Shown here: in pieces, positions 15,805 to 16,540 of the stretch
Layout: each line of letters begins with the position of its first letter
Position numbering within the stretch: the stretch's first letter is position 1
NCBI GenBank assembly: GCA_016841905.1
Contig: JAENYF010000011.1
Span: 1 to 64,000, forward strand
From: Desulfoscipio geothermicus
GTDB lineage: Bacteria > Bacillota > Desulfotomaculia > Desulfotomaculales > Desulfallaceae
Reading direction: 5' to 3'
DNA length: 64,000 bases
Notes under the pieces: model-generated
Database searches by the model: none
What the model was told of the DNA's origin: nothing
What the model saw: the letters and a program-made list of their open reading frames with translations, nothing else
Translations under genes and position numbers: made by a program

Positions 15805-16085
15805 GAAAACAAACAAAAACCCCTCATCCCATAAGGGACGAGAGGTTGATCTCGCGATACCACCCTAATTGATAAAGTCTTTTGGTGGAGATGAGGGGGC
15901 TCGAACCCCTGACCTCCTGAATGCCATTCAGGCGCTCTCCCAGCTGAGCTACACCCCCATGACTTTACCCACTTGGTGCGTTAACGGCACAGGCCGTCCC
16001 GGTTTACTTACTTCAACCAGGCAACTCCGGGGCGAGTTCATTCGCCATACCCACCGCCTCGCACCAACCGGCGGCTCTCTTTAAG
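15805..16085 (-). promoter_or_regulatory. Leucine T-box riboswitch leader of leuS, interrupted by a tRNA gene
   Basis: On the minus strand all T-box parts are present in order. Stem I begins near 16085 with AGAGAGCC and GGTTGGTG; the specifier segment GAACTCGCCCCGG gives codon CTC (16036-16034), leucine, as expected for leuS. A small hairpin ACGGC/GCCGT follows. The T-box motif AGGGTGGTATCGCG is at 15866-15853, and its UGGU bulge would pair with an acceptor end carrying A73. The terminator is the stem CTCGTCCC/GGGATGAG with a T-rich tail (to about 15805). Stem III is GGTAAAGTC (15969-15961) paired with GACTTTATC (15879-15871), nine pairs with one G-U; its loop is a whole tRNA-Ala gene. When uncharged tRNA-Leu binds, the antiterminator should form and leuS is read. 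Confidence 0.93.
15883..15958 (-). tRNA. tRNA-Ala (anticodon GGC), nested in the leuS T-box leader
   Basis: Seventy-six bases fold as a complete cloverleaf. The acceptor stem GGGGGTG/CATCTCC carries G3-U70, the alanine identity pair. The D arm is GCTC/GAGC, the anticodon arm CCTGA/TCAGG with GGC at 15925-15923, and the T arm has GGTTCGA. A73 and an encoded CCA end it at 15883. Two bases separate its 5-prime end from one arm of T-box stem III and three bases separate CCA from the other arm. It can be made only from the leuS leader promoter, upstream of the attenuator, so its supply should not depend on whether leuS is read through. Nothing in the cloverleaf looks decayed. Confidence 0.97.
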
Positions 16086-16142
16086 AGTATACGGCAATTT
16101 ACTATTCCCCTTCATAATTATTACTTTATTGTACTGAAGCTA

Positions 16143-16171
16143 ACTATAAAATAATAGATTATTAAAGTCAA
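16143..16171 (-). promoter_or_regulatory. Promoter for tRNA-Ala, T-box leader and leuS
   Basis: TTGACT (16171-16166) and TATAGT (16148-16143) are separated by 17 bases on the minus strand, in the gap between rsfS and the T-box. Transcription should begin near 16136, about 50 bases before stem I. Confidence 0.75.
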
Positions 16172-16183
16172 CGCTAAAGATTT

Positions 16184-16540
16184 TTACATACTTGCTGAAA
16201 TTTTAACTATTTCGGCGTCTCCCCACAAGTGTTCCAAATTATAAAAATGACGTTGCTCTTCCTGGAAAATGTGGATCACCACAGAACTGTAGTCCAGTAA
16301 TAACCATTGCGCCGTTTTGAACCCTTCCCTGCGTGGATGACCGGCACCGTGCTCATGCAATTTCTCCTCAATTGCATCGGCAATAGCCCGGGCATGCACC
16401 GTTGATCTGCTGCTGCAAATAATAAAGTAGTCGGCCACCACGGAAACCTCGCCTATATTAAGCACGGTGATATCCATAGCCTTTTTCCCTTCCGCCGCTT
16501 CAACAGCCAACCGCACAAGAACATCAGGTTCATTTATCAA
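16184..16540 (-). CDS. rsfS: Ribosome silencing factor
   Basis: One hundred and eighteen residues of the RsfS/Iojap family. RsfS binds ribosomal protein L14 on the large subunit and blocks joining with the small subunit when nutrients are short. Seen are the family segments DITVLNIGEVSVVADYFII, SSRSTVHARAIADAIEEKL and the C-terminal WLLLDYSSVVIHIF. The start is a TTG behind AGGGGG. It follows yqeK by 51 bases, the usual Firmicutes order, and the leuS promoter lies just beyond its end. Confidence 0.96.
   Translation of the reverse strand: MINEPDVLVRLAVEAAEGKKAMDITVLNIGEVSVVADYFIICSSRSTVHARAIADAIEEKLHEHGAGHPRREGFKTAQWLLLDYSSVVIHIFQEEQRHFYNLEHLWGDAEIVKISASM

Follow-up and report, generated by a model that had tools for sequence, protein, structure and literature searches.

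The leader of the leucyl-tRNA synthetase gene leuS in the analysed window, a stretch of 64,000 nucleotides, is probably one RNA with two products, a leucine switch and the precursor of tRNA-Ala(GGC). The initial annotation had proposed that a complete 76-base tRNA-Ala(GGC) gene with G3-U70 and an encoded CCA lies within the T-box of this leader, which was confirmed by ARAGORN, by Rfam and by the sequence. The positions of all elements are listed in Table 1.

Table 1. Elements of the composite leuS leader, in the order of transcription.
Feature	Position	Strand	Basis and remarks
Promoter-like TTGACT-17-TATAGT, upstream of the leader	16171-16143	minus	consensus scan, 10/12 matches
T-box leader (RF00230), stem I to antiterminator/terminator	16124-15831	minus	cmscan, 135.9 bits, E 4.2e-30
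Specifier codon CTC (Leu), in GAA-CTC-GCC	16036-16034	minus	sequence and position in stem I
RRRxG motif AAGTG, 5' of stem III	15974-15970	minus	sequence; motif definition PMC7583486
Stem III, 5' arm GGTAAAGTC	15969-15961	minus	pairing, folds
tRNA-Ala(GGC) gene, 76 nt, apical loop of stem III	15958-15883	minus	ARAGORN; RF00005, 62.4 bits
Stem III, 3' arm GACTTTATC	15879-15871	minus	pairing, folds; AA next (15870-15869)
T-box motif AGGGTGGTATCGCG, UGGU for the tRNA NCCA end	15866-15853	minus	sequence, Rfam
Intrinsic terminator, 13 pairs then T run	15847-15818	minus	sequence scan
leuS, leucyl-tRNA synthetase	ORF 15751-13244	minus	likely start ATG 15730 after GGAGG 15740-15736

The covariance search with Rfam, which had been suggested together with the proposal, aligned the leader over the full T-box model (1-219) and placed an insert of 81 nt in stem III, exactly between its arms; the score passes the curated cut-off of 93 bits for RF00230. 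The sequence features of a transcriptional T-box are in place: The specifier agrees with the downstream gene leuS, the discriminator AAGTG-stem III-AA is complete, the UGGU of the T-box bulge is able to pair with NCCA and a competing terminator is present. Stem III consists of nine pairs, one G-U among them, and clamps the tRNA with spacers of two (AT) and three (AAA) nucleotides as described initially, the nine pairs being found in the minimum-energy fold and the centroid fold alike. ARAGORN detects this tRNA as the only one in the whole window, and cloverleaf, anticodon GGC, G3-U70 and encoded CCA are all present. The N-terminal part of the encoded LeuS has relatives in 106 of 109 genomes sampled from Bacillota, the phylum of the window, and in the LeuS tree the protein groups with Desulfoscipio geothermicus. 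The upstream neighbour of the leader is an rsfS-like ORF (named by eye) on the same strand, which ends at 16184. Further riboswitches on the minus strand of the window are a tandem pair of Moco/tungsten riboswitches (RF01055, 58015-58298) and a Guanidine-I riboswitch (RF00442, 52359-52461).

For the search for further composites a pattern scan was established that combined a tRNA T-arm with the T-box motif, accepted any tRNA and any gene and covered about 85,000 species with one genome each. At least 119 stretches were obtained. Among the matches listed, the only recognised tRNA upstream of a T-box motif was tRNA-Ala(GGC), nearly always before leuS. Within the first 80 stretches 71 overlap an ARAGORN tRNA, in all 71 cases tRNA-Ala(GGC); LeuS is encoded downstream in 69 of these, and the contigs of the remaining two end shortly after the composite. 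The nine stretches without an ARAGORN tRNA include two cut or variant copies before leuS (L093, L095), the others being chance-like. LeuS was likewise found downstream of nearly all members of a second set of composites. Altogether the pooled loci comprise at least 199 matches, at least 162 of them distinct by sequence and all with tRNA-Ala(GGC), and most of the 162 come from searches blind to both tRNA and gene. A match with tRNA-Ala(UGC) and no stem III (L351) was excluded from the composites.

Composites belong to Bacillota and Chloroflexota/Thermomicrobiota. By their record titles, further ones derive from metagenome-assembled genomes labelled Armatimonadota, Actinomycetota, Coprothermobacterota and Caldisericota, of which single cases may be mis-binned; for one such locus (L084) LeuS groups with Peptococcaceae in the LeuS tree, so that mis-binning is possible. 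In an even sample of Bacillota 65 of 299 genomes harbored the composite (three false or doubtful matches excluded), and in a sample of Chloroflexota 15 of 151 (two matches excluded). The composite was also looked for in 100 relatives, and all 30 loci examined, which represent six families of the window's order, carry the same tRNA shortly before the T-box motif. The initial annotation had named a tRNA occurring in relatives as a random neighbour outside the T-box as the observation that would speak against it; in the leaders of the relatives the tRNA is kept inside stem III.

Among distant relatives 7 of 17 leaders scored above the RF00230 cut-off, and all eight that were re-examined proved to lie below it, at 43.6-91.5 bits. 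The T-boxes of seven composites (L097, L098, L112, L114, L116, L132 and L142) reach 46-91.5 bits, less than the required 93, and would be missed by family-based annotation. Standard family cut-offs miss many composite leaders, and the low Rfam scores of numerous distant copies may be one reason why composites have been overlooked. No description of a tRNA within a T-box was found in the open full-text literature, in agreement with the initial statement that none of the described riboswitches was known to contain a tRNA among its domains; most subscription journals lie outside this search and an earlier mention there is possible.

That the tRNA lies inside stem III and not beside it was verified by comparing each locus's own helix with helices whose 3' arms had been swapped between loci, in 200 rounds. 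The own helices reached a mean pairing score of 13.77, the swapped ones 8.55 (sd 0.23, maximum 9.22). Compensatory pair types occur at all nine positions of the stem; pair 2, for instance, can be G-C, A-U or U-A. The helix is preceded by RRRxG in 108 of 123 composites (chance expectation 7% per position), and 149 of 163 have AA after it at a constant distance from the T-box. Both motifs flank stem III in the discriminator that senses aminoacylation (PMC7583486). The claim that the tRNA replaces the loop and leaves the fold intact is therefore borne out, the helix being retained and covarying across loci, while the spacers on either side of the tRNA range in length between 0 and about 20 nt. 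In leuS T-boxes without tRNA the same helix carries a short loop of mostly 3-12 bases, as in gagtg-GGTAA-ttta-TTACC-aa (L244), and this short-loop stem III is the empty state of the tRNA site. The tRNA would be tolerated because stem III acts via its helix and the flanking purines, whereas its loop is variable.

Three more specific ideas on the leader were discarded. A longer stem III might have served as a clamp joining the leader halves after release of the tRNA, but the difference in length between tRNA-bearing and tRNA-free leuS T-boxes (median 7 vs 5.5, p = 0.09) is not significant. Sensing of alanine via the GCC directly 3' of the CTC specifier was rejected, because GCC is the commonest continuation in T-boxes without tRNA, too. 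Across the loci the leucine specifier is mostly CTC, with 37 loci left without an assigned codon in a search for Leu codons only. Finally, the idea that the embedded CCA pairs in cis with the T-box bulge was dropped, because in 27 of 163 cases, most of which come from outside Bacillota, the gene does not encode CCA.

The number of tRNA-Ala(GGC) genes per genome was determined by a pattern search over the same 299 genomes. Of the 65 genomes with the composite, 53 gave exactly one match, and in five further ones the second match is not tRNA-like, so that the embedded gene is the sole tRNA-Ala(GGC) found in at least 58 of the 65. A real second gene exists in four (G234, G311, G190 and G152), and the remaining three were left out of both counts. 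For the genomes behind the named loci the search gave a match in 19 of 22, each of the 19 having exactly one tRNA-like match. Within the window's genus the tRNA shows a mean pairwise identity of 96.7%, compared to 86.3% for the leader 5' of the tRNA and 81% for the 3' part. Sole-copy status and strong conservation support the view that the embedded tRNA-Ala(GGC) is a working gene whose product would be transcribed, matured and charged. RNase P favours T at position -1 of a tRNA; this base is present in 133 of the 162 distinct composites, and it is also frequent among the other tRNAs of the window's genome (22 of 39).

According to the two-product reading, uncharged tRNA-Leu would bind the T-box in trans and cause leuS to be read, while the stem III loop would be a working tRNA-Ala(GGC) gene and usually the only one of the genome. 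RNase P and 3' trimming would then free the tRNA-Ala from the leader. Since the tRNA precedes the terminator, it should be part of every leader transcript that reaches the terminator, irrespective of whether leuS is read, as the initial annotation had argued; the same order implies that the supply of tRNA-Ala would depend on the leuS promoter rather than on the leucine switch. Several points stand against the two-product reading. A processed leader could not serve as an intact switch, the paired stem III beside the acceptor stem could slow RNase P, T at -1 is common in other tRNAs and some genomes possess a second tRNA-Ala(GGC). Most weight is placed on a transcript with two products, because spacers of varying size and a stem III that keeps its length lend no support to a finely tuned device.

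From an unbiased sample, 105 leuS genes could be assessed and were classified by leader type. The composite was found in 25 (24 by an automatic rule and additionally G017, in which it lies about 1.9 kb upstream of leuS), a T-box without tRNA in 39 and tRNA-Ala(GGC) directly before leuS with no T-box in two (L235 2181-2252 and L294 719-791), for which Rfam finds the tRNA only. In the other 39 no T-box was detected near leuS, and Rfam found none in 20 leuS loci without a T-box motif. The T-boxes without tRNA and the two tRNAs without T-box argue against a strict mutual dependence. They are also in line with a passive passenger, an old insertion in a tolerant loop that was kept because, as the sole copy, it can hardly be lost, and that draws no benefit from its location. 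The sole-copy status of the tRNA in most genomes and the natural variability of stem III loops point in the same direction. A passenger is compatible with the two-product reading and denies only an advantage of the place; given the decay of gene order, however, the same tRNA in the same helix across phyla is beyond what would be expected of a mere neighbour, and we consider the passenger a serious possibility but not the one to be favored. In some loci a further gene, named by eye, is inserted between the composite leader and leuS. In Desulfofundulus, Pelotomaculum and L144 this is an acyl-CoA ligase-like ORF; in L101, L132 and L146 it is an ilvE-like aminotransferase ORF, in keeping with an operon that responds to leucine.

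Rather unlikely, in our estimation, is a regulatory role of the tRNA, which as a stable domain in stem III would delay the antiterminator by about 80 extra bases; stem III, close to the acceptor stem, would hold back RNase P until the decision has been made, and the later cut would end sensing by detaching stem I from the leuS mRNA. The initial annotation had similarly suggested that sensing must be complete before processing or that processing might reset the switch. For RNase P of E. coli, cleavage is slower when the leader pairs so as to extend the acceptor stem, and less efficient with a leader of 2 nt (PMC9433436). Stem III could therefore delay the release until the switch has decided; the spacer in the window has 2 nt. 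The restriction of the tRNA, among the matches listed, to stem III and to one T-box class across phyla would also suit such a role. On the other hand, spacers between 0 and about 20 nt on either side and a stem III that is not clearly longer with the tRNA are hardly expected from a timing device, and 39 of the sampled leuS T-boxes manage without tRNA. Improbable to a similar degree is the fuller version, in which the tRNA is a structural and timing domain, its release by RNase P comes only once the leucine decision has been made and terminates sensing, and a single molecule couples tRNA-Ala output to leuS control.

Regarding its history, the two-product leader would be an old arrangement that has been retained or lost many times, and it may have moved between phyla along with leuS. 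On the LeuS tree, a quick FastTree built from about 200 columns, the composite label has to change at least 19 times; neither origin nor transfer is settled by this tree. Two forms of tRNA-Ala(GGC) exist, one of 76 nt with GCTCAG and one of 75 nt with GCGCAG D-arms. Within one family both were observed at the same place in similar leaders (L058-L060 vs L062, L064, L069), as if they had been swapped in situ. These two forms and the number of changes could be taken as signs that the leuS leader contains a hot spot into which tRNA-Ala(GGC) genes inserted repeatedly and independently. Yet the leader is homologous around both forms, which fits replacement in place, many changes are explicable by loss, and only one tRNA and one T-box class are involved among the matches listed; we regard repeated insertion as very unlikely. 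An assembly error or a chance neighbour, the former already raised by the initial annotation, is refuted because at least 162 distinct loci carry the composite, including single-contig genomes (G063, G120, G146) and named isolates such as Desulfofundulus thermosubterraneus DSM 16057 and Syntrophomonas palmitatica JCM 14374.

The findings indicate that an RNA switch can hold a tRNA gene, often the cell's only one of its kind, within its own fold, and that stem III tolerates a structured insert of 76 nt. The supply of one tRNA would thereby be tied to the promoter of the synthetase for another amino acid. The composite offers a natural system in which processing by RNase P and co-transcriptional switching meet on one transcript.

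With the leuS-type transcriptional T-box (RF00230) the composite shares the Leu specifier in stem I, RRRxG-stem III-AA, the T-box motif, the terminator and leuS downstream; it differs in that its stem III loop is a whole tRNA-Ala(GGC) gene, belonging to another amino acid. Cotranscription of tRNA genes with mRNAs, from which they are freed by RNase P, is known for example from the tRNA-tufB operon of E. coli. Here as there tRNA and mRNA have a common promoter, but in tRNA-tufB the tRNA is encoded by a gene of its own, arranged in tandem, whereas in the composite it lies within a folded regulatory domain and upstream of a conditional terminator. Related, too, are T-boxes with lineage-specific insertions, for example in stem III or helix A2 (PMC7583486), which likewise carry extra sequence in a discriminator helix. 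The structure and function of those insertions were described as unknown, whereas the insert of the composite is a recognisable tRNA.
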